From the NCBI GenBank assembly GCA_023910675.1, contig JAAVWC010000003.1, forward strand, positions 1 to 64,000: a DNA stretch of 64,000 nucleotides, in the 5' to 3' direction. This DNA comes from Gemmatimonas sp. (GTDB lineage Bacteria > Gemmatimonadota > Gemmatimonadetes > Gemmatimonadales > Gemmatimonadaceae). Of this stretch, positions 35,892 to 49,625 are shown in pieces. The notes under the pieces were generated by a model that saw only the letters and a program-made list of their open reading frames with translations, had not been told where the DNA came from and searched no databases. How positions within the stretch are numbered: the stretch's first letter is position 1; each line of letters begins with the position of its first letter. The position numbers and the translations under genes are program-made.

Positions 35892-36382
35892 AGGCCGCAG
35901 CTCTTGGAAAGGATGAGTCCCGCCGTACTGATGCAGAGCGTGTCGAGCTTGGTGCCGTAGCGTAAGCGATAGCGGAACACCTGGTCACCGACGGCCATGG
36001 CGTTCGTCATCATCCCGCGGCCGTTGTAGTTCACGGTGGTCGGCGCGCTGTTGAGCGCCTCGAGAGACACGCCCAACGACTGCGACAGGCGTACCGGCCC
36101 AAAGACCCGTACCTCGGTCCCCGCCAGACCGCTCAGGACCGTGACGGTGGCCACGTTGCCATCGAGGGTGAGTGTTGCGGTCTTCCCCTTTTGCAGGGCG
36201 GCGGCGCGGGCCGCGGCGAATGCGGAGGCCAGCTGCTGGTGGCCTGCCCGGAGCGCCGAGCTCTCGCGCATGGTGGTCATTCGCGGCAGCGCGATGGCAA
36301 ACACGATGCCGAGCGTTCCCACGACGAGGAGCAACTCGATCAAGGAATAGCCAACGCGTCGGCGCTGCTGTGAGGTGGTCAT
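35888..36382 (-). CDS. GspH/FimT-family pseudopilin
   Basis: 164 residues. Prepilin signal RRRVGYSLIELLLVVGTLGI with Gly before Tyr and Glu at +5, followed by the GspH domain (SALRAGHQQLASAFAAARAAALQKG; a C-terminal GTKLDTLCISTAG beta segment). It is the first gene of a four-gene minor pilin operon. No major pilin, PilY1 or pilus ATPase is in the window. Confidence 0.88.
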   Translation of the reverse strand: MTTSQQRRRVGYSLIELLLVVGTLGIVFAIALPRMTTMRESSALRAGHQQLASAFAAARAAALQKGKTATLTLDGNVATVTVLSGLAGTEVRVFGPVRLSQSLGVSLEALNSAPTTVNYNGRGMMTNAMAVGDQVFRYRLRYGTKLDTLCISTAGLILSKSCGL

Positions 36383-36630
36383 GACAACTCGTTGTAGAGA
36401 AGCTGAGACGTCCGCCGCTGCTGCCTGCAGGGTGGTGCACTGCCTTGCGCGGGACTCGCCCTTTCGCGAACGACGAACCGGCCATCATACGGCGGTCCGA
36501 TGCGGGTCTCCACGGTCACGACGCCCGGTGTTGCGTCAACTCAACATGATATTCACTTCATTCGAGGCATTTGGAGCATTTGTTGCCACTGATGTGACAC
36601 TGTGGCGTGTACGAGACAGGGGGCGAACGC

Positions 36631-36666
36631 ACGACGCGCCCGGACAGTGATGGCCGGGCGCGTCGT
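36631..36666. terminator. Hairpin left of the outermost att copy
   Basis: ACGACGCGCCCGG pairs perfectly with CCGGGCGCGTCGT around a 10-base loop. No long T run follows on either strand. Similar hairpins lie just left of the other two tRNA-Asn 3' copies, so this may be the original terminator of tRNA-Asn before any integration. Confidence 0.6.
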
Positions 36667-36703
36667 GTAACAGCTAAACCGATCGATTTTTATGCGGTAC
36701 TGA

Positions 36704-36723
36704 CAGCTCCCGGGGAGGGACTC
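36704..36723 (-). repeat. Partial tRNA-Asn 3' end (20 bp), outer att site
   Basis: CAGCTCCCGGGGAGGGACTC is identical to 42571-42590 and, except for the first base, to the end of the intact tRNA-Asn at 49458-49477. It covers the acceptor 3' strand and part of the T arm, then the sequence diverges. I interpret it as attL of the distal element. Confidence 0.75.
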
Positions 36724-36784
36724 TGACGTGACCCCAGTTGCTGTCCTCCTCCGCCCGCTCTCGGGGCATGGGCCAGCCTCTACG

Positions 36785-37585
36785 CTACCGACATTTTGTG
36801 AGTCCCGTCGGAGCAGGATCTTGGGTGCAGACCACCGCCACTCCCCCCGACGTCTCGGGCTCAGGCGGTACCATCGCTTCGAACATCGGCACCAAGAGCT
36901 GATCCGTCGCTTCGCAGAGCGCGAACGCGAGCACAAGCACGGCATTCAGGCAGCGCATATAGCGCGCGGTGTCCGCCGTCATCTCCTCGTTGGGGATCTG
37001 CAGCAGGTGCGTATGGGGGAACTGCTGCTGCAGCGCGAGCACCGCGGCATCGCTCGGGACCTCATCATCGAACACGCTGAGTACCACATCGAGCTCCGGC
37101 ACCACGTAGAACACGCCCGATGACGGGCTGATATCCCATTGCACAGCCATCACGCTGTTGGGTTGCCGCCGCTTCATCGCTTCACGGATATCATTGGCGA
37201 CATAGTGAAACGCCAGCTTGTTCCGAACGCGCCTGAGGTATCCCCCCTGCATCGCGGTCGCCACCGGATGCGCGCGCAACGCGTCCAGTGCCTCCATGCC
37301 CGGCACGTTGGCCATGACACGTTGAAACTTCTTGTCGTTGAGCACAGACAGCGCCTCAAACACCGCGGCGGCCATCAGCACGCCACCCGTGAAGCGCGCG
37401 CGGACCGCTTCGGCGGAGTTGCTCTCCGTGTCGCTGGAGGCATGATCGATCACGAACCGCATCGTGTTCGTTGCCCGCGCGAGACGCAGCGCGTGCACGA
37501 ACGTCTCGTCAGCCGTGGCGGCCTCGATGGCCTCACGTGGGACGTACAGCGTCAGCTGCTGCCCGTCGAAGTCGTCGCGTGCCAA
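36785..37585 (-). CDS. Putative HEPN-motif protein next to an XRE regulator
   Basis: 266 residues, family not recognised. The central part is helical, and after VMANVPGMEALDALRAH comes RRVRNKLAFHYVAND. This holds RNxxxxH (Arg121, Asn122, His127), the form of the HEPN RNase catalytic motif with a polar residue after Arg. No membrane segment. It starts 11 bp after the stop of an XRE-family gene on the same strand, an arrangement typical of toxin-antitoxin or autoregulated defence pairs. The C-terminal third is acidic and unrecognised. Toxin function is inference. Confidence 0.6.
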   Translation of the reverse strand: MARDDFDGQQLTLYVPREAIEAATADETFVHALRLARATNTMRFVIDHASSDTESNSAEAVRARFTGGVLMAAAVFEALSVLNDKKFQRVMANVPGMEALDALRAHPVATAMQGGYLRRVRNKLAFHYVANDIREAMKRRQPNSVMAVQWDISPSSGVFYVVPELDVVLSVFDDEVPSDAAVLALQQQFPHTHLLQIPNEEMTADTARYMRCLNAVLVLAFALCEATDQLLVPMFEAMVPPEPETSGGVAVVCTQDPAPTGLTKCR

Positions 37586-37596
37586 ACCCGCAAGCC

Positions 37597-37878
37597 TCAG
37601 CGTACGCGGCCGCGCGCGGCGGCCTTCGACGACTTCACCGCCGGCACGACGCTACGACGTGTAGGGCGGACGGACTCGCGCTCGAAGAGCTCACCAGGGG
37701 TCACCCCAAGCACATCGCAGAGCGCATCCAGCGCAGCGGCGTCGAATGATTCCAGTCGGCCTTTCAGGCGGCAGAGGCGATAGGCGATGCTCAGACTGAT
37801 CCGCTCTCCAGACTGTTTCGCGAGAGCGTAGGCCGTGAGGTTGGCGGCGTCCAGTGATTCGGGGAGGCGAAGGCGCAT
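37597..37878 (-). CDS. Small XRE-family HTH regulator
   Basis: 93 residues. The HTH spans about 13-66: LTAYALAKQSGERISLSIAYRLCR for the first helices and FDAAALDALCDVLGVTPGELFE, a very typical Cro/CI-type end. The C-terminus is a basic tail (RPTRRSVVPAVKSSKAAARGRVR). It is first in a two-gene unit with the HEPN-motif gene and lies beside two palindromes at 37887-37952 that may be its operators, between it and the divergent small-ORF operon. Confidence 0.8.
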   Translation of the reverse strand: MRLRLPESLDAANLTAYALAKQSGERISLSIAYRLCRLKGRLESFDAAALDALCDVLGVTPGELFERESVRPTRRSVVPAVKSSKAAARGRVR

Positions 37879-37886
37879 CTTGGAGA

Positions 37887-37952
37887 ATCGCCACTATGGC
37901 GATCACTCGCGATAGTGTGAGTATTGGCGATGTAGCGATCTCTAGCAATACT
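37887..37952. promoter_or_regulatory. Palindromic operator candidates between divergent units
   Basis: ATCGCC (37887-37892) and GGCGAT (37898-37903) form one inverted repeat. CACTAT (37892-37897) and ATAGTG (37912-37917) form an overlapping one. AGTATTG (37920-37926) and CAATACT (37946-37952) form a third. They sit directly upstream of the XRE gene and of the plus-strand operon, fitting autoregulation. Confidence 0.55.
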
Positions 37953-37965
37953 GTTACCACCCGTA

Positions 37966-38202
37966 TTGTTTCCCCCATGTCTGTGGAGCCTTGAAGACGC
38001 GCCCTCGCGTGTCACCCCTCCCACGAGTCCGGCACCGCTGTTCGCTCGCGTAGCCGCGCAACTGGAGACCGCCGAGCGTCGCGATCTCATATCCAAAACG
38101 TTGCCGGTGCACCTAGTCCGCGAACTGCTGCAGCACGCGCAGTCGGCCACACGGAAGCAGCGACTCACGGCGCGCGCTCACACCGCCGGGGCAGCGCGAT
38201 GA
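37966..38202 (+). CDS. Small protein, first of a coupled operon in element A
   Basis: Up to 78 residues if TTG 37966 is used; no in-frame ATG is available. The helical part VAAQLETAERRDLISKTLPV and HLVRELLQHAQ is protein-like, followed by a basic tail. Its stop overlaps the next ATG by 4 bp (ATGA), which supports the frame. Function unknown. Confidence 0.4.
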   Translation: MFPPCLWSLEDAPSRVTPPTSPAPLFARVAAQLETAERRDLISKTLPVHLVRELLQHAQSATRKQRLTARAHTAGAAR

Positions 38203-38543
38203 GCGCGCATCCGGCGACTCCCGTGCACCGCCCCCACGACCTAGCCACGGCAGCGGTCGTGCCGTCGTGCTCGATCGATGTGAGTGTGCCGATCTCGCGC
38301 GGGCGCTTTTTCGACGTGACCGTCGGCATGGCCTCCGCACAGGAGCTGTCACTGAGCTTCGCCGTCTCCGGTGCCGATGGACTGCGCACGGAATGCGGTG
38401 TCCTGTTCCGCGGGGCCGACGACATCGCGCATGGGCTGGCCGGCATCCGCGAAGCCCTACACCACGTGTCCCTGTTGCAGACGTTCGTGGAGGATAACCA
38501 CGCCGCGCCGATGCCGGTGTGCGGGCTCGGGGCGCCACGGTAA
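38199..38543 (+). CDS. Unknown protein in the coupled operon of element A
   Basis: 114 residues, unrecognised. Predominantly beta segments (SIDVSVPISRGRFFDVTVGM, ELSLSFAVSGADG) then a helix (DDIAHGLAGIREALHHVSLL). Starts in an ATGA overlap with the preceding ORF and ends TAATG with the next, so it is embedded in a translationally coupled set. Confidence 0.6.
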   Translation: MSAHPATPVHRPHDLATAAVVPSCSIDVSVPISRGRFFDVTVGMASAQELSLSFAVSGADGLRTECGVLFRGADDIAHGLAGIREALHHVSLLQTFVEDNHAAPMPVCGLGAPR

Positions 38544-38884
38544 TGGCGCGCGCGCGATCGCATCGGGCCCACGCGAAGCCCGAACCAATGCCGTTCGATG
38601 TCGACAGCATGTGGCGCGCGCTGCGGTCGCTCACGTCGGGCCCGGCAGATGTCCCGGTGACCGCCGACGAAGTCGCCCACCAGGTGCGCAGCGCCCACCC
38701 GCGCACCGCCGGCGCGCGGATAGTCACCCACAATGACCTGATCGCCTGCCGTCGCATTCTCGATCAGCTCATACTCGACGGGGTCGCCTCGAGCGGCGCC
38801 GATCGCCCGGCGATCACCGGCCGGTGGCCGCGGACGTATCTTGCGAATCAGCCACCAGCCACAACATCGGGAGACGCACCATGA
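38543..38884 (+). CDS. Unknown protein, possibly winged-helix, in the coupled operon of element A
   Basis: 113 residues with a basic N-terminus. The middle (DSMWRALRSL, VPVTADEVAHQVRSAHPRTA, NDLIACRRILDQLILDG) resembles a small helical or winged-helix domain. Start ATG 38543 shares one base with the previous stop; its own stop overlaps the next ATG (ATGA). Function unknown. Confidence 0.55.
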   Translation: MARARSHRAHAKPEPMPFDVDSMWRALRSLTSGPADVPVTADEVAHQVRSAHPRTAGARIVTHNDLIACRRILDQLILDGVASSGADRPAITGRWPRTYLANQPPATTSGDAP

Positions 38885-39125
38885 GCCGCCAGAACGAGAC
38901 GCCACGCCGGCCCAGCGAAGACCCGGACCTCGTTCGATGCCTGAAACAGCTGCCGCACCATGTTCAGGCGGACGTGCGGTACTTGGTGGATACGACACCC
39001 TCGACGATCTCTTGTCGATTCTTCGTGCGGCACGCTTCGGTGACGATGACGATAGTCGAGCCGTGTATCGGCTTGGCCGGCTGCACGAGCGGGAGATTCA
39101 TCGGGCGTATCTCCGGCCCGGGTGA
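38881..39125 (+). pseudogene. Short ORF with apparent frameshift near 38984
   Basis: Translation from the coupled ATG 38881 gives a plausible start (DPDLVRCLKQLPHHVQADVRYL). It then becomes implausible, while the minus-one frame from 38985 encodes a convincing end (GGYDTLDDLLSILRAARFG then AVYRLGRLHEREIHRAYL, stop 39125). Adding one base near 38984 joins them into about 81 residues. Either a 1-bp deletion, a sequence error or a programmed shift; alternatively a 62-residue ORF starts at ATG 38937. Confidence 0.45.
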
Positions 39126-39155
39126 ACTGCCTTCGACGGTGTCCATCAAACGAAA

Positions 39156-39179
39156 CAGGGCGCCGGTAAGGGCGCCCTG
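39156..39179. terminator. Hairpin between convergent units in element A
   Basis: CAGGGCGCC pairs with GGCGCCCTG around a 6-base loop, between the plus-strand small-ORF operon and the minus-strand hicB-like gene. There is no T tail, so intrinsic termination is uncertain. Confidence 0.5.
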
Positions 39180-39206
39180 GGGTAATCTGCGAGAGTGTCG
39201 CTGCGT

Positions 39207-39563
39207 TCAGCGCACCGCGTACTGCAGCGCTGGCCCCGCACTCGCGCGAAGCTCTTCGAAGAGCGCTCCATGGCCGCGGAACACCAGATTTCTCCGAGCG
39301 CCGACCGGCGAGGCGCCTTTTTCCCACGGAACAATACGGCCGAGGGGCATTGGAATGGGATCCCCACACGCGAGCATCGTCTCGATGACCGCAGAAAGTG
39401 AAGCCATAAGATCGGCCTGCAACTCACGTTCGTTGCTTCCGGTGCCGATCACGCCTTGCAGCTCTTTCACGCGCGCGACGAGCTCTCCGTCCTCTTTGGT
39501 GACCAGCACCGTCCACGGCTGCCGTAGCAGCTCCGCCCGCTTCTGTTCAGTCGTCCAATCCAT
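39207..39563 (-). CDS. HicB-like antitoxin
   Basis: 118 residues from ATG 39563, chosen for GAGG about 6 bases upstream. The core (PWTVLVTKEDGELVARVKEL, GVIGTGSNERELQADLMASL) fits the partial RNase H-like HicB fold (beta hairpin with an acidic turn, then a helix). The C-terminus continues for 60 residues and lacks an obvious HTH. It follows the HicA-like gene by 13 bp, the usual toxin-first order. Confidence 0.7.
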   Translation of the reverse strand: MDWTTEQKRAELLRQPWTVLVTKEDGELVARVKELQGVIGTGSNERELQADLMASLSAVIETMLACGDPIPMPLGRIVPWEKGASPVGARRNLVFRGHGALFEELRASAGPALQYAVR

Positions 39564-39576
39564 CTCAGCCTCGTTC

Positions 39577-39864
39577 CTATGATCCGTCTGGCAACAACCC
39601 GGCGTCACGAAGCGCCGCGACCATGTCCCTGATATACACCGGCTTAATGGTGCCGTGCCCTTTCTCTACCAATGTGACGATTGTCGTCCGGTGAACGTTG
39701 CCACTTGGATCGGCACGGCGCCAGACCCGGTGACTTCCGCCTCGTTTCCCCGCCGGCCTCGCAAACCCGAGCGCCTTGAGGATTCGAACCGCGTCCGCAT
39801 AGGTGTAGTTCCTCGGATCGGGATCCGCGACCATCTGTGCTAGGAGCTTTGCCCAGTTTGCCAT
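39577..39864 (-). CDS. HicA-like mRNA interferase toxin
   Basis: 95 residues. The dsRBD-like HicA pattern is visible: YADAVRILKALGFARPAGKRGGSHRVWRR, with the catalytic His in GGSHRVW, then TIVTLVEKGHGTIKPVYIRDM. Slightly longer than the classical 60-residue HicA. Stop to hicB start 13 bp; its own start is 3 bp after the DUF6941-like stop. Ribosome-dependent mRNA cleavage is the family function. Confidence 0.75.
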   Translation of the reverse strand: MANWAKLLAQMVADPDPRNYTYADAVRILKALGFARPAGKRGGSHRVWRRADPSGNVHRTTIVTLVEKGHGTIKPVYIRDMVAALRDAGLLPDGS

Positions 39865-39867
39865 GCG

Positions 39868-40305
39868 TTACGCACTGGGCGCCTGATCCACATAAAACGG
39901 CGCGCTGGCAATAGGAATGCCGTCCACCAGGAGCACCACTTCGTAATCGCCGAAGGCAGGGAACACCAACCCGTGCAGCTCCATGATCACCTGCGCCCGC
40001 ATCTGCCTTCCGTGGGGATTCAGGCGGAAGTCGAGCGGCCCGAATTCCTGTGGAGTGATGAGGTACTCGCCGTCCTCGTGCTTTACCGCAAAACTGAGCT
40101 CGTGGGACAACCCGTCAGACAGGGATGCTGTAAGCACGACAACGAGGTAGAGAGGGGGAATGGGGATCTGAGGATTCTGCCCATCAGCCGGGGCTTTCAC
40201 AATCTGAACGCTCACCCCGTCAAGTGTTCCGGCTATTGTCAGTTTTCCCTCTGGGCTGCTCACTGCATACGTGGCGAGCGTAACGACTTTGCACTCCAGT
40301 GGCAC
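39868..40305 (-). CDS. DUF6941-like protein, first of a three-gene operon with hicAB
   Basis: 145 residues from GTG 40305 (AGGA 7 bases upstream); an upstream start at 40350 is possible. The order VVTLATYAVSSPEGKLTIAGTLDGV, then PPLYLVVVLTASLSDGLSHEL, then a C-terminal strand set (FGDYEVVLLVDGIPIASAPFYV) matches the DUF6941 pattern I recall, an uncharacterised all-beta family. It ends 3 bp before the hicA-like gene, so the three are surely co-transcribed. Confidence 0.65.
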   Translation of the reverse strand: MPLECKVVTLATYAVSSPEGKLTIAGTLDGVSVQIVKAPADGQNPQIPIPPLYLVVVLTASLSDGLSHELSFAVKHEDGEYLITPQEFGPLDFRLNPHGRQMRAQVIMELHGLVFPAFGDYEVVLLVDGIPIASAPFYVDQAPSA

Positions 40306-40551
40306 TATCGAATCCTCATGTGAAATGGTCGCCCCAAAAACGCTGACCACCGCAGGCTCTGCCGAGATCGTTTCTCAAAAGATCGCGATCGGGCGCGTAT
40401 TGCGCGACACAGCTCTTGCGCAGCAGCGGACGCCAGCGGCCTCAACCAAGCCGGCGCCCGCGATATTTTGGACGTCAGCCCCTTCTATGTGGTGGGGTGC
40501 AGGTACACCGCCTTGCGACAGCACCGGGGCATTCGACCCAAGCGCCCCCGA

Positions 40552-40710
40552 TCACTTCGTCCGTGCGTCCCCGGGCCGAGCCGTCCATCGGTGACCGCAG
40601 CGACACTGAACGTCGATGGCGCGAAGACCCACTAGGAGCACAGCGGCGGTGTTCGGGCCGATCTCTGCAGAGGCTTCGGTGCGGAATCGTGGGTGAGAAA
40701 ACGTGAGCAT
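40552..40710 (-). CDS. Possible small Cys-containing protein
   Basis: 52 residues from ATG 40710 with GAGGAC 4-8 bases upstream. VQCRCGHRW near the C-terminus is a half zinc-ribbon. Base composition and length make this tentative. Confidence 0.3.
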   Translation of the reverse strand: MLTFSHPRFRTEASAEIGPNTAAVLLVGLRAIDVQCRCGHRWTARPGDARTK

Positions 40711-41032
40711 GTCGTCCTCGGGAAGGGGATAGTCTCGCCGCCCCGTGGTGGGCGACGCTCGCCACGATAGGATGCCGTGGGCACACCGACTGAGGAAACC
40801 CACCAGTGGTGTGAAGGGGGGCCCTGTGCGCCCCCGTCGCGTTTCACGTGGGCGCCGCGCTTGGACGCGTCAGCGGGCAGTGGTGACGCGAGCGGGGGCT
40901 CAGGACCACTCCGCAGTGTCGACGCCGGCAGGCAGACGCCTTGCGGGTTTGGCACGGGCAACGCACCATCTGGTTTCGCCTCTTGCACCACGGAGCCCGA
41001 CGACGATCCCCCCGGAACCGCTCACGGTGTCG

Positions 41033-41281
41033 ATGTGGCGCCTTGACCCGGCGCCATGGGACACGAGCGCGACAGTCCGGCCGCTGCGCCGCTTCGCCAT
41101 CCGGGAAGCCACTAGCTTCGGTACGGAGCTCGGCGACGCGCCAGAGACGGTGTACGTCCTCGAGCAGCCTGATGGCCCCGCTGTCGTCGTGCCGCAGCGG
41201 GTGTGCGGCCTCTGGGACCCGATCGCTACGCCGGCGCGCCGATTCTTCTACGCTGGGAGCCTGACGGGGCGCTTGACGTAG
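41033..41281 (+). CDS. Possible small hypothetical protein
   Basis: 82 residues from ATG 41033. LRRFAIREATSFGTELG, TVYVLEQPDGPAVVVPQRV and DPIATPARRFFYAGSLTG look protein-like; the open frame upstream of 41033 does not. No clear ribosome site. Unrecognised. Confidence 0.35.
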   Translation: MWRLDPAPWDTSATVRPLRRFAIREATSFGTELGDAPETVYVLEQPDGPAVVVPQRVCGLWDPIATPARRFFYAGSLTGRLT

Positions 41282-41475
41282 TCACGGTGCAGCACACGGC
41301 GACGGTGTTCGGCCGACTCTGCTACCCCAGCGGCTGGTAGGCAGGCTCGTGGTTCGCGCATCGCTCACGCGCGGTCTGTCGGCGCCAGGTCTTCGCGCAC
41401 GCGAGCGCTGTCCTTGGCCGGACGCTGGCCCCGTGGTGGATCAGCCCCTGCCACCGTTGCTGAACGCGGACAGGG

Positions 41476-42321
41476 TCAGCCGATTTCGCCGGTGCGCCGT
41501 TCACGCTCTACGAGCTGATCCAGCGTGAGATCCGCTCGCTCGCACAGCGCGCGATACCGGAATCGCCACCCCGCGCTCGCATAGCGCGACGTGCCGCGCA
41601 AATCGAAGTTGAGGAAATCGTCGTACAGTCCGGGTGCGCGCCGATCTTCGGAATGCACAGTGAACGGCAGATCGTCGATGGGATCATCAATAGGATCGTC
41701 CCACGCACTCACGTGCGCGCGCGCCGGCGTTGGATAGTAGAGCGTGGCGGCGCCATCCGGCGAAGACCGGAACGCGTGGGCTTCGGGCGACGCCTCACGG
41801 GCGAGCACCACGTGGGCCCGCGGCAGGAACAGCGTCGGGGAGAGTCGCGAGAGCAGAAACACCACGTCATGCGGCCGACGCCGCAGGTCCTTGCCTTCGA
41901 TGCGCAGCAAGTCGTGCACGACCCCACATCCCAACATCGCGGCATCGCGCCACTTGTCACGCAGCCGATCATGGAATTCTCTGCCATCGCATTCGATGAC
42001 GAGCACACGGCCCGTCTCGGGTGCCACCAAGTAGAAGTCTGGCCGGAATCGGCCGAACGGAGTCGGCACCGGGCGCTGCGCAGTCTTCCGCGTCGCAGGC
42101 GTCAAATACTTGGCAAGGAGGTCCTCCAGCACGGCCTCGATGGGGCTCGCCGTGCGCTGTACCACATGCTGCCCAGGTCTCCGCTGCTCCGCGCTCTCGA
42201 CCACCGCCATCACCGTCTCGGTGATGCGCACCAATCCCGCGCGCCCCTCAATGCCATGCTCTCGGCGACGCTCGCGATATTGCTGCATCAAATCCTCGTC
42301 ACTGACTGCCATTGCCGCCAT
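41476..42321 (-). CDS. PD-(D/E)XK-like (DUF559/Vsr-type) endonuclease domain protein
   Basis: 281 residues from ATG 42321 (GAGGG 4 bases upstream). Residues about 75-160 carry a nuclease-like core: PFGRFRPDFYLVAPETGRVL, VIECDGREFHDRLRDKWRDA and LRIEGKDLRRRP. The Asp in RPDFYL, the Glu-Cys-Asp strand and the following FHD and R/K helix match the DUF559 and very-short-patch-repair style of this fold. The rest is unrecognised. Cargo at the right end of element A; could be a restriction or defence nuclease. Confidence 0.65.
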   Translation of the reverse strand: MAAMAVSDEDLMQQYRERRREHGIEGRAGLVRITETVMAVVESAEQRRPGQHVVQRTASPIEAVLEDLLAKYLTPATRKTAQRPVPTPFGRFRPDFYLVAPETGRVLVIECDGREFHDRLRDKWRDAAMLGCGVVHDLLRIEGKDLRRRPHDVVFLLSRLSPTLFLPRAHVVLAREASPEAHAFRSSPDGAATLYYPTPARAHVSAWDDPIDDPIDDLPFTVHSEDRRAPGLYDDFLNFDLRGTSRYASAGWRFRYRALCERADLTLDQLVERERRTGEIG

Positions 42322-42514
42322 GCCGCCCTCAACGCGGTGAACAGGTGCCCGTGTGTGCCCTGACCGCACGATATCACAAGACGCCAGTTCGGCTACAGTG
42401 ACGTATCACCGGAGGGGGGCCACCCTGAAGCGGCTGGTGCGCGCGTGTCCCAAGCGGGGGCAGACTGGTACGCCAATAGCCGGGTCCTCGGTGTAGCACC
42501 GGCGTAGATCCAAA

Positions 42515-42548
42515 CGAAAAACGGCCAGCCTTCAAGGGGCTGGCCGTT
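42515..42548 (-). terminator. Rho-independent terminator next to the inner att copy
   Basis: An 11-bp perfect stem (AACGGCCAGCC/GGCTGGCCGTT) with a TTTTTCG tail on the minus strand, 24 bp left of the tRNA-Asn 3' fragment. It probably served a tRNA-Asn copy when this junction was the chromosomal 3' flank. Confidence 0.8.
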
Positions 42549-42571
42549 CTCGTAAGTCCTTCAATTTCAAC

Positions 42572-42615
42572 AGCTCCCGGGGAGGGACTCGAACCCCCGA
42601 CAGGGTGATTAACAG
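42572..42615 (-). repeat. 44-bp att repeat: tRNA-Asn 3' end copy (inner junction)
   Basis: Identical over 44 bp to 49459-49502, covering the tRNA from the anticodon loop to the 3' end plus two bases. It is immediately outside the integrase gene stop at 42620. The first 19 bp are also shared with 36705-36723. Confidence 0.93.
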
Positions 42616-42619
42616 CGAG

Positions 42620-43906
42620 TCAGCCCCCGCTCTGTAAACGCCGATAGGACAGCACCTTGGCTGGCGTTGCGGGTGCGCTTTGTGGCGTCGGTGTGGTAGC
42701 GGTGTTTGCCGGCGCCGCCAATAGCGTGTCCATCATGTCAGCGAGCTTCACCGCGTCACCTGGAATCGACTTCGCGTAGAACGCCAGCGTGGTCTTGGCG
42801 CTCTCGTGGCCGGCCATCTTCGACACGGTGGTGATCGGCATCCCGTTGGCGAGCAAGAGCGAGAGACAGGAGTGGCGTAGCTCGTACATACTCATGTCTT
42901 GCGGGATACCAACATCTGCGAGGGTCCTGAGCAGCTTCTTGAATCGACGAGACACGTTGTTCGCGTGCTCAGGCGTGCCGGTCTCTGACGTGAAAACCAG
43001 CGCCTCAGGCAGACGTGCGCGTGGGCCAGAGGCGACAAGGTGCGCCCGGAGCGCTGTGACGGTAGCCGTCGTCAACGACAACGTACGGATACCGGCCTTG
43101 GTCTTCGTATCGCCGCGCGTACGGGATGGTGTCAGCGTCTTCGTGATGCGTGCAATCTTCAGGTCGAGGTCTACATCTTCCCAGCGCAACGCTAGCGCTT
43201 CACCCGGTCGAACCCCTTGCGACAGCTCAAGCGTCCAGAGCGCGCGGTGTTTGTGCGAGGCGATCGCCTCAAGAAAGCAGCGGGCTTGATCGGCTGTGAG
43301 GATACGCACTTCGCGGGTTCGCGTCGCCTTCGGTCGCTTCACCCGGTCAAGCGGGTTCTCCGACAGCTTCCGTTCTTCGATCGCCTTCTCAAGCGCCGGA
43401 TGCAGAATCGCGTGAAGGTACTGCGCGGATCGCGCGCCTTTCCCATCATGCCGAATGGCATTGTAGAGGCGCTGGAAGTCTACGGGCCGTAGCGACGCAA
43501 GCGGGCGAGCGCCAAGGTTCAGCTCTCGCACCTCGTCGGGGACGGCACGGCCATTCTTCGGCCGCTCTGCTACCGGGACCGGCTCCCCGTCGGCGTCGAG
43601 CCAACCATGAGGATCTATCACGTACCGCTGCAACGTGGCGCGATAGTGTGCCCGGGTGTGTGGCCGAAGATCCGGCATCCATACGTCTAGCCAATCGGTG
43701 AGCCATGCTGCCAGCGGTTCTTTGCTGGCGATCGTCAGGCCGCGACGCTGAATCTCTTCGTTCCGCTGAGTCAGCCACCGTTCTGCGTCGGCTTTCCGCG
43801 TGAAGGTCTTCGACGTAGACCGATGGCTGTCAGCCCAGGCGCGCGCGACGTAGCGGGGTTCTCCCGCCTTGGTCACTCGCTTGGTGATTTCGCCACGTCC
43901 AGCCAT
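42620..43906 (-). CDS. Tyrosine site-specific integrase of element B
   Basis: 428 residues from ATG 43906 (GAGGGG 5 bases upstream). N-terminal Arm/SAM-like DNA-binding domain (TFTRKADAERWLTQRNEE; WLTDWLDVWMPDLRPHTRAHY). The catalytic domain has Arg in ELSQGVRPGEALALRWEDVD, Lys-region TKTKAGIRTLSL, His-x-x-Arg type box YELRHSCLSLLL, and GHESAKTTLAFYAK with the nucleophile Tyr. Last gene of the element, abutting the 44-bp att repeat, as expected for tRNA-targeting integrases. Confidence 0.96.
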   Translation of the reverse strand: MAGRGEITKRVTKAGEPRYVARAWADSHRSTSKTFTRKADAERWLTQRNEEIQRRGLTIASKEPLAAWLTDWLDVWMPDLRPHTRAHYRATLQRYVIDPHGWLDADGEPVPVAERPKNGRAVPDEVRELNLGARPLASLRPVDFQRLYNAIRHDGKGARSAQYLHAILHPALEKAIEERKLSENPLDRVKRPKATRTREVRILTADQARCFLEAIASHKHRALWTLELSQGVRPGEALALRWEDVDLDLKIARITKTLTPSRTRGDTKTKAGIRTLSLTTATVTALRAHLVASGPRARLPEALVFTSETGTPEHANNVSRRFKKLLRTLADVGIPQDMSMYELRHSCLSLLLANGMPITTVSKMAGHESAKTTLAFYAKSIPGDAVKLADMMDTLLAAPANTATTPTPQSAPATPAKVLSYRRLQSGG

Positions 43907-44024
43907 GCACCCCTCGTTGTTGGATACGAAACAAGATAACACAACCACACGGGATTTACCACACTAGCGCCACAGAGCACAAAAACAGGCTATACAGGAC
44001 AACGAGTTAGCAGCTACATAGTGA

Positions 44025-44348
44025 CTATCGGTCACTCGATACTGCGCCAGAATCGGCCAGTTTTCCCCGTGTCTGCTGACTTCGGCTTGCCGCCTTCCCG
44101 ATGCGGTAGAGACCGGGGGCGCCTCGGTTCGGTGGCTTTGCGCAGTCGAGAAAGCCCATGCCGAGTAGGAGCCGAATGGCATTGCGCACGGTTCGACGGT
44201 GCATCCCCAGTGCTTCGCCGGTCACCCGCACTTTGATTGCGCGCGGGTCCGACTCGTCCAACATCGGCGCCATGTAGCACCATATCAGCTTGGCAGCTAA
44301 CCGCTGCCGCAATCGCTTGGAGTGCAGGACGTGCAAGTATGTCGTCAC
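44025..44348 (-). CDS. Small winged-helix protein (paralogue 1)
   Basis: 107 residues from GTG 44348. LAAKLIWCYMAPMLDESDPR, then an HTH (VTGEALGMHRRTVRNAIRLL) and wing (GMGFLDCA, APGLYRIG). It aligns along its whole core with the neighbour at 44454-44765 (AAKLxWxYxAPMLD; TVRxAxRxL; GxYRxG). Likely DNA-binding, role unknown. Confidence 0.7.
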   Translation of the reverse strand: MTTYLHVLHSKRLRQRLAAKLIWCYMAPMLDESDPRAIKVRVTGEALGMHRRTVRNAIRLLLGMGFLDCAKPPNRGAPGLYRIGKAASRSQQTRGKLADSGAVSSDR

Positions 44349-44453
44349 GGATCACCGCCAGAAAATGTCAGCTTTTGTTAACCGCCCTTTGGGGGGAGGT
44401 CTCCCAATGGGAGCGCGGTAGTTGTCGGACCGACTCTAGTTTTCTTCAGCACC

Positions 44454-44765
44454 CTATGGGGCGTGGTGGCCATCTTTGACACGGCGCCATGCCGGTCCAA
44501 GCCGGTACCAGCCGGCCGACTGCGGACCGGGTTCGTCTACGCACTCCACCAGCCCCCACGCGTGCAGCGAGCGCAGGGCGCGCCGCACGGTGGAGAGCTT
44601 GGTGTCAAGCGTTCGGGCGATCGCGTAGCCACTCAGCGGCCGCGCGTGGTTGTAGTCGAGCATTGGCGCCACGTAGACCCATACCAGCTTGGCGGCGTGC
44701 TGCGGTGACCGGATGCGCAGCGCCAGGAACGCCGTGAATGCCTGGGCGTGTGTGACGGATTCCAT
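44454..44765 (-). CDS. Small winged-helix protein (paralogue 2)
   Basis: 103 residues. HAAKLVWVYVAPMLDYNHAR precedes an HTH (LSGYAIARTLDTKLSTVRRAL) and a wing (AWGLVECV, AGWYRLG). Paralogous to the preceding gene in position and motif order, so a tandem duplication within the element. Probably a replication-initiation or regulatory DNA-binding protein. Confidence 0.72.
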   Translation of the reverse strand: MESVTHAQAFTAFLALRIRSPQHAAKLVWVYVAPMLDYNHARPLSGYAIARTLDTKLSTVRRALRSLHAWGLVECVDEPGPQSAGWYRLGPAWRRVKDGHHAP

Positions 44766-44797
44766 AACTCAGTGCGAACCGTACGTCTCGCGGCGAT

Positions 44798-44983
44798 TCA
44801 CTTTCCGTCGCGGTATTCGGTCATCGTCGCCTCGTCGAAATCGTCGACGTTGATGATGACGAAACCCGATTCGGTGTCTTCGCTCACGATCGTCATCGTG
44901 GCGGGGATCGGCGCCGGCGTGATAAACGGCGGAACAAAGTCGTCGTTCTGGCTCACGCCATTGATCGTGCGTTCGGTGGACAT
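44798..44983 (-). CDS. Small acidic protein of unknown function
   Basis: 61 residues with GGAGAG upstream of ATG 44983. Rich in Asp/Glu/Thr (SEDTESGFVIINVDDFDEA), no recognised domain. Common among phage and satellite small genes; the ribosome site and operon position support it. Confidence 0.55.
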   Translation of the reverse strand: MSTERTINGVSQNDDFVPPFITPAPIPATMTIVSEDTESGFVIINVDDFDEATMTEYRDGK

Positions 44984-45041
44984 GGTGACGCTCTCCGTGT
45001 GCAGGGTGGTCGCCTCCGGCAGTCGCCGGAGACGGTGGCGA

Positions 45042-45566
45042 TTACTTCAGCCGGACGCCGAGCGGCATCGGACTGCGACGGATGCGTTCCCGTTCGGCTT
45101 CGATGCGCGCCAGCTCTTCCGCGTGTCGTGCGCTGAGGGCGGCAAGCTCCTTGTCGGCCTTCTCCTTGGCGTCGCGCTCAAGGATGGCGTTCACCTTGGC
45201 CATCTGCTCCCGCTGCTTCATCTCGCGGGCCTTGTGTGTGACGGGTGTATCGTCGCCACTGAGAACGTGAATCGCCTTGCCGATGCGCTCGGTATGGGCC
45301 AGCACGGACGCCTGATCCGACGCGCGCACCCAAGCCAGCACGAAGCTGCCGTCAATGTCGCGGGCGTAGAGTGTCTGGTCTTCGGGAGCGAGGTAGCGCA
45401 GCGTCGCGAGGCGCTCAGGGAGCGCCGACGTGCGCTCAGCGAGGGGTGCCACGAGTTCAGCCTCTTCGGCCGCCTTCGCGCGGAGCGTGACTTCGGCGTA
45501 GGCGTCGCGGTCCATCTCCGCTTTCGCGAGGGCTTCGCGTGCTTGGTCTTTCAGTGCTTCGGACAT
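45042..45566 (-). CDS. Coiled-coil protein of unknown function
   Basis: 174 residues from ATG 45566 (GGAGAT upstream). N-terminal helix (KDQAREALAKAEMDRDAYAE), a central mixed segment (YARDIDGSFVLAWVRASDQ) and a C-terminal charged coiled coil (AKVNAILERDAKEKADKELA then ARHAEELARIEAERERIRR). Possibly a phage scaffold-like or accessory protein; not recognised. Confidence 0.65.
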   Translation of the reverse strand: MSEALKDQAREALAKAEMDRDAYAEVTLRAKAAEEAELVAPLAERTSALPERLATLRYLAPEDQTLYARDIDGSFVLAWVRASDQASVLAHTERIGKAIHVLSGDDTPVTHKAREMKQREQMAKVNAILERDAKEKADKELAALSARHAEELARIEAERERIRRSPMPLGVRLK

Positions 45567-45633
45567 CGGGGTATCTCCAGCCACCAGAAGGGAGCCGCGC
45601 ACCGGGTGGCAGACAGTGCGCGGTGAACGTCGT

Positions 45634-46011
45634 TCAGGAAACCGGCGACGGTACGTCTATCGGGTCTACGACTTGGTGCACGACGTGGACGCTGAGCGGG
45701 GTGTTGCCGTCCGTATCCGTTTGGGTCACGGTGGCACCGAGCCCGTACCGTGCGAGCTGTTCCAGCGCCCGGAGCCGATCGCTCACACTCAGGCTGGCGT
45801 CGTCGGCAAAGGCTTCAAGCAGGTGAATGCGATCGGCGAACGCTTCACGCATCGCTTCACGGACGGCGGACGGTGGTCGTCCACTACGGCCGGGCTTGCC
45901 CCCCGTGTTGCCAGCGTGTGCACCAACGGGGAGTGCCACACCGCTAACCGGCGACGGCCTAGCGGTTTTCGTAGCGGTTTTCTTGGGAAGAGTCACCAAT
46001 CGGGATGCCAT
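45634..46011 (-). CDS. Possible small-terminase-like satellite protein
   Basis: 125 residues from ATG 46011 (GGAG 10 bases upstream; a TTG at 46032 is possible). A basic low-complexity N-terminus leads to NTGGKPGRSGRPPSAVREAM, a Gly/Pro/Arg entry often seen before helical domains of phage small terminases and related proteins. Then come helices FADRIHLLEAFADDAS and DRLRALEQLARYGLG. The terminase link is weak and by analogy only. Confidence 0.5.
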   Translation of the reverse strand: MASRLVTLPKKTATKTARPSPVSGVALPVGAHAGNTGGKPGRSGRPPSAVREAMREAFADRIHLLEAFADDASLSVSDRLRALEQLARYGLGATVTQTDTDGNTPLSVHVVHQVVDPIDVPSPVS

Positions 46012-46056
46012 ACGGTGCTGGTCTCCGGTCAAGGGAAAGGGAGTGAAACGGCGGGG

Positions 46057-47673
46057 TTACGCGGCGCCAAGGGTGCGCCAATAGCCTTCGTCTACGGGGT
46101 CCAGTCCGGGCGGCAACACGGACGAGACGGGCACGGCAACGCAGTGCGTCTCCCTTCGGGAAAGTGTCCCATGTGTTGTTTCTGTCCCATCTGTTCCGGC
46201 ATTCGGGGACACTTGGGACGGTGGCAACACATGGGACGGATGCGCAGACGGAAACGCGTTGCTGTCGTCGGGCTCCGTGGGCTCTGGGCAGTAGCGCGCC
46301 CAAGCGTCCGCGAACATGGCGGCATGGAGCCACCGAGCTTTGGTGCCCTCGTGCCACTGAGGCGCCGTGCTGGCGATGTCGAAACGCTTCAGCAGGTCGT
46401 GCAGCGCGCGCGCCGAAAGCGGCCGCGACTGCCGGTAGTCCGCCCACGGGCTGCCCTCTTGGTCATGCAGCCAAGCGAGCAACGCCGTCGGCTGTACTGA
46501 GGCGTCCTGGTGATCGGCGAAGTATCGACGGATGTCGAGTAGCAACAACACGCCGATGTCCGCCTCTTCGTCTGCTGAACGACGGGTCAGCGCGTCACAT
46601 GCTTCCGACAGCAGCACCGAGAACGGTCCGCCAATCGCGTTGCCGAGTGCGAGTGCTGGTCCCCAGAGGTCGCGCGCGCGCCCGTCAAGATGACTAGGGA
46701 ACGGCAGGTGTGCCGCGTCTTCGTGTAATGCGTCGGCCAATGGCGCCCGGAGCTGTTCGCCTAAGCGGGCAAGCTGTTGCCGCATGGGGTCCGCCCAGGT
46801 GTCCGCGTGCATGGCTTGTAGCGGGCGCGGGTGTACGCCAGCCGGCGCCCGCTCCAACGTGATCGTATACGCACGGCTTCGGGTCGTATCGTGCAGGGTG
46901 CGCCCGATGCCAGCGACGGCGCGGAAGCCGAACACGTCGAACGCTTTCGGCTCGTGATCGTCGCCGACGCTGCGCAGAAATCGACCACCACGAGAAAAGC
47001 CGGCGTTGAGCAACCCCGTGATTTCGCCCGCGCGATCACCGATAAGCCATTGGTCTAGCTCGTCAAGCACCAGCGTTGCCCGATCACGTTCGGCCAAGCG
47101 AAACAGCGCGCTCAGTGTGGCGTTCTCACACTTGAGTGACCGTGCCGCCAGCAGCGTTACCAAGTCCAGTAGCGTGGATTTCCCACAACCACGCGTAGGG
47201 CTTCGTACCCACAGCAGTGGCGCCACCGGCAGCACATCGAGACAGTAGGTCAAGACGAGCCACGCCACTACCACCACGTCGGCGTGTTTGGGCAGGTGCA
47301 GGTGCATCGCGATGCGAGCGAGCAACGCCTCTAGCACCATATCGGCCGCGACAGGTTCGGGCCATGCTTGCACCGGGCGCACCAGTCCCGACACAGACAC
47401 GGGCGTGTCCGCTCCATTGGCGGGTGGTGGTTGTATGGCGAGCGTTACCAGCGCGTTGCGGATTACCTCGTGCACGGTGGTGTCCTGCACTTGCTTCACC
47501 AGCCGTTCCCGTGCGTTGCCGTTCATGAGGTCCACGGCTTCGAGCGTCATACCGCCATCTATCGTGATCGCCACGGCCGGCCGCTTTCGACCCTTCGTCC
47601 ACACCAACCGCACAGAACCTCGTCCTGGTATTTCGATGCTATCGGCGCTGAGTTCCGCGTCAGGCGGCAGCAT
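46057..47673 (-). CDS. DUF3631-type AAA-like ATPase, putative replication helicase of the element
   Basis: 538 residues from ATG 47673 (GAGG 7 bases upstream; it overlaps the previous gene by 14 bp). Walker A in SPTRGCGKSTLLDL (about 158-171), Walker B in TLVLDELDQWL, and the DUF3631 signature ITGLLNAGFSRGGRFLR, FRAVAGIGRTLHDTTRSRAY, TITLERAP. The C-terminus has a helical domain (LHDLLKRFDIASTAPQW) and a disordered tail. Such proteins pair with primases in mobile elements; no separate primase is visible here. Confidence 0.85.
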   Translation of the reverse strand: MLPPDAELSADSIEIPGRGSVRLVWTKGRKRPAVAITIDGGMTLEAVDLMNGNARERLVKQVQDTTVHEVIRNALVTLAIQPPPANGADTPVSVSGLVRPVQAWPEPVAADMVLEALLARIAMHLHLPKHADVVVVAWLVLTYCLDVLPVAPLLWVRSPTRGCGKSTLLDLVTLLAARSLKCENATLSALFRLAERDRATLVLDELDQWLIGDRAGEITGLLNAGFSRGGRFLRSVGDDHEPKAFDVFGFRAVAGIGRTLHDTTRSRAYTITLERAPAGVHPRPLQAMHADTWADPMRQQLARLGEQLRAPLADALHEDAAHLPFPSHLDGRARDLWGPALALGNAIGGPFSVLLSEACDALTRRSADEEADIGVLLLLDIRRYFADHQDASVQPTALLAWLHDQEGSPWADYRQSRPLSARALHDLLKRFDIASTAPQWHEGTKARWLHAAMFADAWARYCPEPTEPDDSNAFPSAHPSHVLPPSQVSPNAGTDGTETTHGTLSRRETHCVAVPVSSVLPPGLDPVDEGYWRTLGAA

Positions 47674-48070
47674 GGTCCGCCTCACTGACTCGGTGTCGAT
47701 CCCACGCGCGACGTACCAGCGCGTCCAACCGGATACACTGTTCTGGGGTGGCGTTGCGGCGGGTGGCGTACCGCTGTACCTCGTGGCGCGCGATGTCGAG
47801 CGTTGAGAAATACCGCGCGGCATCGGCGGCCACGTCTGCCGCTTCGGCCGTGGTCATCGGCGGTTGCGCGTGGTGCGCATCCGTGACCACCATCGTGGCG
47901 AGCAACCCGAGCACGTCCTCTCGGAGTTCGACGCCGGCCTCGTCACGCCAGCGAATAAGCAGAAAGGTCAGATTGTCGCGACCGACGCCGAACGTCTCGT
48001 GGAGCCCTCGCGCGAGACGAAGGGCACGCACCAACGGCGGGTCTTGGTCAGTGGTGTGCAAGGCGGTCAT
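47660..48070 (-). CDS. Unknown helical protein of element B
   Basis: 136 residues from ATG 48070, which overlaps the preceding stop (ATGA). Helical: DPPLVRALRLARGLHETFG, DNLTFLLIRWRDEAG, VLGLLATMVVTDA, AADVAADAARYFSTLDIARH. No recognised motif. Its end overlaps the DUF3631 ATPase start, so a functional link in replication is possible. Confidence 0.65.
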   Translation of the reverse strand: MTALHTTDQDPPLVRALRLARGLHETFGVGRDNLTFLLIRWRDEAGVELREDVLGLLATMVVTDAHHAQPPMTTAEAADVAADAARYFSTLDIARHEVQRYATRRNATPEQCIRLDALVRRAWDRHRVSEADHAAA

Positions 48071-48384
48071 GCGGGCATCTCCGCACGACTGGTGAACGCG
48101 AGCACTTCGGACGCCAGCCAATCGAGTACCAGGCGCCGCACGCGTTCCGTTGGGATGGTCGCGACGCTGCGCAACGGATGGCCGGGAGCGTTCCCGAACA
48201 CCACCAGCGGCAGGAGCGGGTGCGAGGGGCGGACAGCGAGAATGTCCCCACGACGGGCGTGGAAGGGGCCAACGATGGCCGTCTCTACGCGGTACATCGT
48301 CACGAAGCCGGCGACCGGCAGAGCGGTGAACGTTGACACCGCTTCCGTCTCACGAGCTGGGCGGATAGCTTTTGCTTTCGGCAA
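48067..48384 (-). CDS. Unknown small protein of element B, TTG start
   Basis: 105 residues if the TTG at 48384 is used; AGGAG sits 6 bases upstream, whereas the longer ATG at 48456 has a poor site and adds an Arg/Pro-rich stretch that overlaps a hairpin (arms GGGTCCCCG/CGGGGGCCC near 48400-48423). VGPFHARRGDILAVRPSHPLLPLVVF is a likely beta domain. Stop overlaps the next ATG. Confidence 0.6.
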   Translation of the reverse strand: MPKAKAIRPARETEAVSTFTALPVAGFVTMYRVETAIVGPFHARRGDILAVRPSHPLLPLVVFGNAPGHPLRSVATIPTERVRRLVLDWLASEVLAFTSRAEMPA

Positions 48385-48439
48385 TGCAGTCTCCTGACGG
48401 GTCCCCGCGCAAACGGGGGCCCGTCGTCGTTTGGGGGAT

Positions 48440-48634
48440 TCAGCGGCGGGGGGCATCGGCTTCGGTGCCTTCGTCCAGGATGCGCGCGAGGTCGCGCTCT
48501 CGGATGCGCAGTGCGCGCGTTCCGATCCGGACCGCCGGGAGTATCCCTCGGTCGATCATCGAGTAGATCGTGGCCGGCGTGAGGTCGAGCCGAACAGCGA
48601 CCGCTTTCACCGTAACAAGTCCTTGCGCGGGCAT
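48440..48634 (-). CDS. Excisionase/AlpA-like HTH protein
   Basis: 64 residues from ATG 48634 (GGAG upstream). The MerR-like excisionase HTH reads LVTVKAVAVRLDLTPATIYS then MIDRGILPAVRIGTRALRIRERDL. First gene of the minus-strand operon and divergent from the repressor, the normal place for a recombination directionality factor or an operon activator. Confidence 0.8.
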   Translation of the reverse strand: MPAQGLVTVKAVAVRLDLTPATIYSMIDRGILPAVRIGTRALRIRERDLARILDEGTEADAPRR

Positions 48635-48678
48635 CGGGGCTCCGGTTGGCAGTGGCAAGAATAAACCCATGTGACAGG

Positions 48679-48719
48679 ATTCTACACAATAGCAGACAAG
48701 TACACAATATGTGTATAAT
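48679..48719. promoter_or_regulatory. Overlapping divergent promoters and palindromic operator of element B
   Basis: Minus strand: TTGTGT (48702-48707) and TAGAAT (48679-48684) with a 17-bp spacer, for the excisionase operon. Plus strand: a perfect TATAAT at 48714-48719, only 6 bp before the repressor ATG. The palindrome TACACA-ATA-TGTGTA (48701-48715) overlaps both, and a half site TACACAAT recurs at 48683-48690, 18 bp away. This is the layout of an autoregulated lysis-lysogeny type switch. Confidence 0.75.
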
Positions 48720-48725
48720 ACTGCC

Positions 48726-49409
48726 ATGACTGATAATCGAGCCAAGCAAGTCGAGATCGGCGCGCGCCTTCGATCGACGATGGAAGACAAGGGGCTTTCT
48801 GCCCGTAGCCTTGCGATCGCCCTAGAGGAACGTGGGCTCCAGTCGGTGAACCGGACGACGATCGGCGATTATTTGGCCGGCCGGTATAGCCCCACGGCGG
48901 CGCTCCTTCTCGATATTGCCGACGTGCTTGGGGTAACTCCTGGGTGGCTGCTTACTGGGGAGGGCCCCCAAGTGGTGTTGGCGACTGAACGCGCGAGCAC
49001 CGAGCGATGGGGGTGGCTTTCGGCAGCACTTCAGGAACGGATAATCCGTGCTGCGCAGCGCGCCAGCGCGCCGGGTCAGTCGGCTGAGGAGGCAGTGCAG
49101 GCCGTAGATGCCTATCTACTCGGCGCGCTCCATTTGGCAGACACGAGACTCGCGCCACACTCAATGGCCGAAATCGCCGCCCGGTGCTTCAACCAAGGGG
49201 CGGAGCAGGATCTAGGCGACGTGATTGCCCTGCTGGTGTTCGCCTTCGACAAGATCCACACCGTTACCGGCAAGAGCCCGTGGGGCGGGTGGGACGTAGC
49301 CGCGCGCTACCCGGACGATTTCGGCGAGGAGAGTGTGGCGCCGAGTGTGGTAACAAGCCACAAAACGACTAAACAAGGCAGCAAACAACCGAAAAAGAAA
49401 AAGGGCTAG
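48726..49409 (+). CDS. CI-like XRE-family repressor of element B
   Basis: 227 residues. The N-terminal HTH (about 8-75) is IGARLRSTMEDKGLSARSLA then NRTTIGDYLAGRYSPTAALL and IADVLGVTPGWLLTGEG. The rest is a helical domain without a LexA-type Ser-Lys peptidase; the C-terminus is Lys-rich. The only gene on the plus strand in the element, next to the tRNA. With the -10 box ending 6 bp before the ATG, the mRNA is probably leaderless. It likely represses the excisionase operon and itself. Confidence 0.85.
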   Translation: MTDNRAKQVEIGARLRSTMEDKGLSARSLAIALEERGLQSVNRTTIGDYLAGRYSPTAALLLDIADVLGVTPGWLLTGEGPQVVLATERASTERWGWLSAALQERIIRAAQRASAPGQSAEEAVQAVDAYLLGALHLADTRLAPHSMAEIAARCFNQGAEQDLGDVIALLVFAFDKIHTVTGKSPWGGWDVAARYPDDFGEESVAPSVVTSHKTTKQGSKQPKKKKG

Positions 49410-49427
49410 CCCGTAGGCTAACCCCTT
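49401..49427. terminator. Bidirectional terminator at the repressor end
   Basis: AAGGGCTAGCC-CGTA-GGCTAACCCCTT forms an imperfect hairpin that includes the repressor stop codon. It is followed by CTCTTTT on the plus strand and by a T-rich stretch on the minus strand, so it can end both the repressor and the tRNA-Asn transcript. Confidence 0.75.
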
Positions 49428-49458
49428 CTCTTTTCACGCTATATCCTTCGTTTTCAAT

Positions 49459-49502
49459 AGCTCCCGGGGAGGGACTCGAACCCCCGACAGGGTGATTAAC
49501 AG
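49459..49502 (-). repeat. 44-bp att repeat within intact tRNA-Asn
   Basis: The right-hand copy of the 44-bp repeat at 42572-42615. It runs from the anticodon loop of tRNA-Asn through its 3' end, so insertion restores a complete tRNA gene. Confidence 0.93.
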
Positions 49503-49533
49503 TCACCTGCTCTACCACCTGAGCTACCCGGGA
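49461..49533 (-). tRNA. tRNA-Asn (anticodon GTT)
   Basis: 73 bases with a full cloverleaf: acceptor TCCCGGG/CCCGGGA, D stem GCTC/GAGC, anticodon stem GGTGA/TCACC around loop CTGTTAA (anticodon GTT), five-base variable region, T stem GGGGG/CCCTC with loop TTCGAGT, discriminator G. No encoded CCA. It is the integration site of the array to its left. Confidence 0.97.
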
Positions 49534-49625
49534 ATACTCGACCAACGGCACCACACCTGCTGCTCCGGCCGACCGCCACAAGGACGCGCCAGAGCCTCAT
49601 ATAATCACAGGGCAGGGCACGTGAG

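Follow-up and report, generated by a model that had tools for sequence, protein, structure and literature searches.

Tandem integration at a tRNA-Asn gene of Gemmatimonas: a decayed island and a second, probably later element

Organization of the tRNA-Asn Locus

The 3′ end of a tRNA-Asn gene is present three times in the window, that is, in the whole stretch of 64,000 nucleotides that was analyzed from a Gemmatimonas genome. As an earlier note on this DNA had claimed, the copies are graded in length: besides the tRNA called by ARAGORN, there is an exact 44-bp copy of its 3′ half and a short copy, which has 19 bp (36705–36723) in common with the tRNA and 21 bp (36703–36723) in common with the 44-bp copy (Table 1). 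The complete tRNA-Asn 73-mer is identical in many genomes of the same genus. The 20-mer of the short copy has three matches in the window, with 0.00 expected from shuffled sequences. When the 4.5-Mb draft genome (84.9% complete) was searched for the 19-mer with up to three mismatches, four sites were found, namely the three known copies as the only exact matches and one site with three mismatches. The match is thus not a common one elsewhere in the genome, a point on which the earlier reading depended. A hairpin lies to the left of all three copies (ΔG of −29.3, −28.0, and −31.5 kcal/mol). The terminator-like character that had been proposed for each of them holds for two, whereas the outermost hairpin, conserved beside tRNA-Asn in G017 and G028, has no U-tract.

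Table 1. Features of the tRNA-Asn locus, in window coordinates
Feature	Position	Strand	Remarks
Original chromosomal hairpin downstream of tRNA-Asn	36630–36667	−	Same in G017, similar in G028, beside tRNA-Asn
Truncated displaced tRNA-Asn 3′ end	36704–36723	−	20 bp; what remains of the outer att site of A
Element A, decayed island, no integrase	36704–42571		Absent from G017 empty site
A cargo gene, 266 aa	36785–37585	−	No Pfam match; among 148 genomes of the family, a single relative (28%)
A small XRE-type regulator	37597–37878	−	PF13443, 4.9e-8
A HicA toxin and HicB-like partner	39207–39864	−	HicA, 39577–39864, PF07927, 2e-6; HicB-like, 39207–39608, UPF0150-like, 4.3e-4, below cut-off
A DUF6941 protein	39868–40350	−	PF22091, 8.1e-16
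A protein with weak restriction-endonuclease-like match	41476–42369	−	PF18741, 1e-4, below cut-off
Two GGTGTAGATCC-like 11-bp sites in tandem	42490–42511	+	Only tandem pair in 64 kb
Terminator hairpin with U-tract	42506–42559	−	On tRNA-proximal end of A
Displaced 44-bp tRNA-Asn 3′ half	42572–42615	−	Exact copy of 49459–49502; reaches anticodon loop; A/B boundary
Element B, 6.9 kb	42572–49458		Perfect 44-bp direct repeats at ends; absent from G017 empty site
B tyrosine integrase, 442 aa	42620–43948	−	PF00589, 2.2e-21; phrog_1, 1.4e-59; ends 5 bp from 44-bp copy
B small winged-helix-like protein	44025–44348	−	Weak HTH matches (Pfam); similar one at 44454–44765
B small protein, no assigned family	45634–46032	−	No Pfam/PHROG match; no relative in viral contigs
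B DUF3631 protein, Walker A/B motifs	46057–47823	−	PF12307, 2.8e-26
B excisionase-type HTH_17 protein	48440–48790	−	PF12728, 1.1e-10; TIGR01764 above cut-off
B divergent phage-type repressor (XRE HTH)	48711–49409	+	PF13560, 6.7e-9; phrog_4, 2.6e-12
Terminator hairpin with U-tract	49390–49438	−	On tRNA-proximal end of B
Intact, regenerated tRNA-Asn (gtt)	49460–49533	−	Sole tRNA-Asn called by ARAGORN; target of B, forming its right end

The DNA between the short and the 44-bp copy is referred to as element A, and the DNA between the 44-bp copy and the intact gene as element B. Element A has a coding density of ∼53%, calculated from ORF coordinates, and about half of it is noncoding. That only B possesses an integrase, as stated before, is borne out: neither a Pfam search of nine frames from the noncoding gaps nor a PF00589 search over the whole genome detected an integrase remnant in A. 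PADLOC found no defense genes among ten proteins from A and B.

Element B has a coding density of ∼95% by the same measure. Counted from the 44-bp copy, it encodes the integrase, two winged-helix-like proteins, two proteins of no assigned family, the DUF3631 protein, two further family-less proteins, the HTH_17 protein, and the repressor. The DUF3631 protein is probably a replication helicase. A search with it gave three weak matches in the plasmid collection, with similar proteins in two small Streptomyces (actinobacterial) plasmids, and one phage match; no relative was confirmed in viral contigs. The relatives of the B integrase in the genome_contigs search are mostly actinobacterial and chloroflexotal, with ∼24–43% identity. 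No Pfam match to relaxase, secretion (T4SS), or capsid genes was obtained among the B proteins tested; judged by these proteins, B does not qualify as an ICE or IME, which are recognized by relaxase or T4SS genes. Of a PICI-type gene set, integrase, HTH_17 protein, repressor, and DUF3631 protein are present, and no AlpA or PICI primase model was matched in Pfam or PHROG. The possibility that B is a phage or plasmid already known was rejected, as no close relative was found.

As to arm sites shared by the two ends of B, just two weak 11-bp inverted matches were seen. Because B is almost fully coding and has perfect ends and a full-length integrase, its excision on its own is plausible, and B could still be active in this respect. 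A second integrase gene on the same contig (G000:C3:168007–168822; L189), the product of which is 38% like that of B, has no tRNA-Asn fragment nearby.

A Related Genome Possesses the Empty Site

We compared the locus with thirty genomes of the same genus. The closest one at tRNA-Asn is G017, which shows 93–94% identity in the flanks: L018:1–422 of this genome matches window positions 36302–36723 (94%), and L018:404–1978 matches positions 49459–51036 (93%). Both flanks of the window are therefore contiguous in G017 around one intact tRNA-Asn, which represents the empty site. Because these flanks meet at tRNA-Asn, positions 36704–49458 are inserted DNA. The original 3′ end of the tRNA survives, displaced, as the 20-bp copy, with the original hairpin to its left. 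The empty site, a comparison already proposed in the earlier note, proves the tandem integration at tRNA-Asn that was claimed there and provides the A+B block with the unoccupied counterpart in a relative that is expected of a tRNA island. No relative was found that carries the genes of the 36.7–42.6-kb region in the same place without a tRNA fragment.

The order pilins, tRNA-Asn, and uvrA, in which the pilin gene gspH adjoins tRNA-Asn and uvrA is located on the other side, is found in nine relatives (G017, G001, G003, G004, G028, G021, G029, G024, and G026). In G012, G010, G016, G014, G027, and G025, a lipase-like or MOSC-domain gene, which lies beyond the pilins in the window, directly adjoins tRNA-Asn. 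G009 (L037), G018 (L048), and G007 (L049) seem to have in common a ∼7.5-kb block near tRNA-Asn that replaces the pilin genes, and neither an integrase nor a second tRNA fragment was noticed there. The shared block was read from the all-against-all tblastx of the loci, which was too noisy in G+C-rich DNA and was not relied on.

The tRNA-proximal End of Element A Recurs in the Genus

The tRNA-proximal end of A is organized as a module (42490–42571), in which the tandem pair of 11-bp sites is followed by the terminator and then by the tRNA 3′ half. The site pair probably represents integrase arm sites of A. The same end is found beside tRNA-Asn or a fragment of it in G005 (91%, with a second copy that is more diverged), G015 (86%), G012 (80%), and G023 (78%); the remaining places scored in the genus do not have it.

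Next to a 44-bp fragment in G005 come three exact GGTGTAGATCC repeats and, after these, an intact integrase of the Arm-DNA-bind_3 type. In G023, an A-type end is separated by a 2.3-kb remnant from an outer 44-bp copy, which has one mismatch and a left flank that matches the tRNA-Asn flank of G014. Because G023 pairs the A-type end with an outer 44-bp copy that is flanked by G014-like sequence, this end behaves as the end of an element. The architecture of G005 is also seen at another tRNA: an integrase in G021 (L188:7200–7700; G021:C30), which is 39% like that of G005, lies behind a displaced tRNA-Gln 3′ half and a terminator, and this 3′ half, as read from the sequence, also ends about at the anticodon. 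It appears that elements of the A family use the anticodon loop for crossover and that outer fragments of 44 bp remain, with the integrase next to them.

The assignment of A to this family rests on ∼80 bp of its end, because no cargo is common to A and the G005 element. Only the small XRE gene of A is found again, in a remnant in G026, where a 64% relative (L058:2576–2782) is located between gspH and tRNA-Asn. This XRE gene is apparently what is left of an A-like element in G026. The genome was also searched for another integrase of the A family that might act on A in trans, and none was found at E < 1e-20.

G005 (L038, L039; G005:C51, C52) seemingly carries an element at tRNA-Asn, and outside its 44-bp fragment a second, more diverged A-type end adjoins a MOSC-domain gene. 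In G012 (L041) and G015 (L040), an A-type end is located to the left of tRNA-Asn with no second tRNA fragment within ∼19 kb, which makes these sites look like scars of elements since lost.

Proposed History of the Locus

We consider it likely that a single tRNA-Asn accumulated two unrelated integrative elements, with a deletion on the integrase side of A and the subsequent arrival of B at the regenerated tRNA. A, a member of the Arm-DNA-bind_3 (DUF4102-type) tyrosine integrase family, would have inserted by a crossover at the anticodon loop. It would have contributed a tRNA 3′ half, a terminator, and arm sites of its own and displaced the original 3′ half, with its hairpin, to the outer side. 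Subsequently, a deletion from inside the outer fragment would have taken away the integrase together with its arm sites and left no more than 20 bp of the fragment itself; one such event would account for an outer fragment that measures 20 bp and has neither arms nor integrase. B, with its unrelated integrase, would then have entered the regenerated tRNA-Asn. The best reading of A is that of a decayed island that lost its integrase, the integrase-side arms, and the anticodon-loop half of the outer att site by deletion.

With just 20 bp, the short copy might be taken for a chance match and A for ordinary chromosome, a view that we reject and to which we assign next to no probability, because zero matches are expected from shuffles and the G017 flanks join exactly at the short copy. 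A T-arm crossover by the integrase of A is unlikely in our view, yet it would account for the length and position of the 20-bp block, which reaches from the T-loop to the 3′ end. The 20 bp would then be the complete core, merely the integrase gene would have been lost, and the G005-like end would have been obtained by recombination of end modules. The T-loop (J) class is common and comprises about half of the catalogued tRNA islands (1836 J versus 2083 anticodon (A) sites) (PMC4383910). In G005 and G023, however, the same terminator and arm end accompanies 44-bp fragments that reach the anticodon, which argues against the T-arm reading. The order of events had also been dated, with A first and B later. 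This order is the simplest and the likelier one and fits the decay of A, but it is no strict date, because A entering the outer att site of B would leave an identical final structure. Both integration into the att site of a resident element and composite transfer are discussed in the literature (PMC5704250), and either B came first and was joined by A at its outer 44-bp att site, or A and B arrived as one composite, in this second group of scenarios. We regard these routes as rather improbable, since the primary target is the intact tRNA and decay has gone much further in A than in B.

The earlier note had further suggested that A can be excised alone or together with B. A would then be a non-autonomous, cis-mobilizable element with a working outer 20-bp site, at which the integrase of B excises A or A+B. 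Indeed, tRNA 3′-end sequence is present at both ends of A, and CIME–ICE tandems with cis-mobilization are known (PMC5704250). However, the outer copy extends no further than the T-arm and does not include the anticodon-loop region in which the 44-bp core of B and the fragments of G005, G023, and G021 end. The integrase of B is also outside the family to which the end of A points, the integrase-side arms are missing, and the genome search returned no A-family integrase. Because the 20-bp copy is without the likely crossover region, excision of A or A+B is not expected; from the sequence of the site, neither the integrase of B nor the lost type of A should recombine at 36704–36723. The suggestion is thus not supported by these findings, and we hold cis-mobilization of A to be very unlikely.

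Comparison with Known Systems

For ICESt1-related elements and for streptococcal tRNA-Lys islands, a decayed island (CIME) has been described in tandem with an element that arrived later at the common target (PMC5704250). The general process of tandem accretion at a tRNA gene is thus already known, and the locus is a new instance of it. In contrast to the CIME tandems, no conjugation or mobilization gene was recognized in A or B. A shares with a CIME that it carries no integration or transfer genes. It does not appear to retain both attL and attR, as a CIME does, because its outer att site is truncated to 20 bp, is without the anticodon-loop region, and has probably lost its function.

Similar to the A-type tRNA islands of Islander (PMC4383910), B possesses a regenerated, intact tRNA, a displaced 44-bp 3′ half in the same orientation, and a tyrosine integrase inside. 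A+B is not an Islander tandem, because each island needs a fragment and an integrase (PMC4383910) and A has no integrase. In size, divergent repressor and excisionase, and the replication-type gene, B resembles PICI-like or AICE-like elements or phage satellites, whereas neither AlpA nor a PICI primase was recognized in it, nor any gene for packaging or FtsK-like transfer.

The locus provides a natural example, with an empty-site control, of islands piling up at one tRNA gene while the outer one decays, and it points to a hotspot at which integration has recurred in a genus that is represented here mostly by draft genomes. New here are the proof by the empty site, the end module of A, the probable type of its lost integrase, and the repeated use of the hotspot within the genus. 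Because each element brings its own tRNA terminator, the terminator changes with every integration. It is conceivable, and we propose it only tentatively, that the region downstream of tRNA-Asn in this genus is a fossil record of repeated integrations, in which terminators were swapped and terminator and arm sites persist after deletion, could bind later integrases, and might guide accretion. Candidate scar ends in such a record are those of G012 beside the lipase-like gene, of G015 at ∼2 kb from the MOSC-domain gene, and of G005 beside the MOSC-domain gene.

Tyrosine recombinase genes with identical scores are also found at two places in contig 1 of this genome, G000:C1:471107–472863 and 746167–746673, and one of them adjoins a second recombinase gene. 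This pair of loci possibly represents a repeated recombinase-based transposon.
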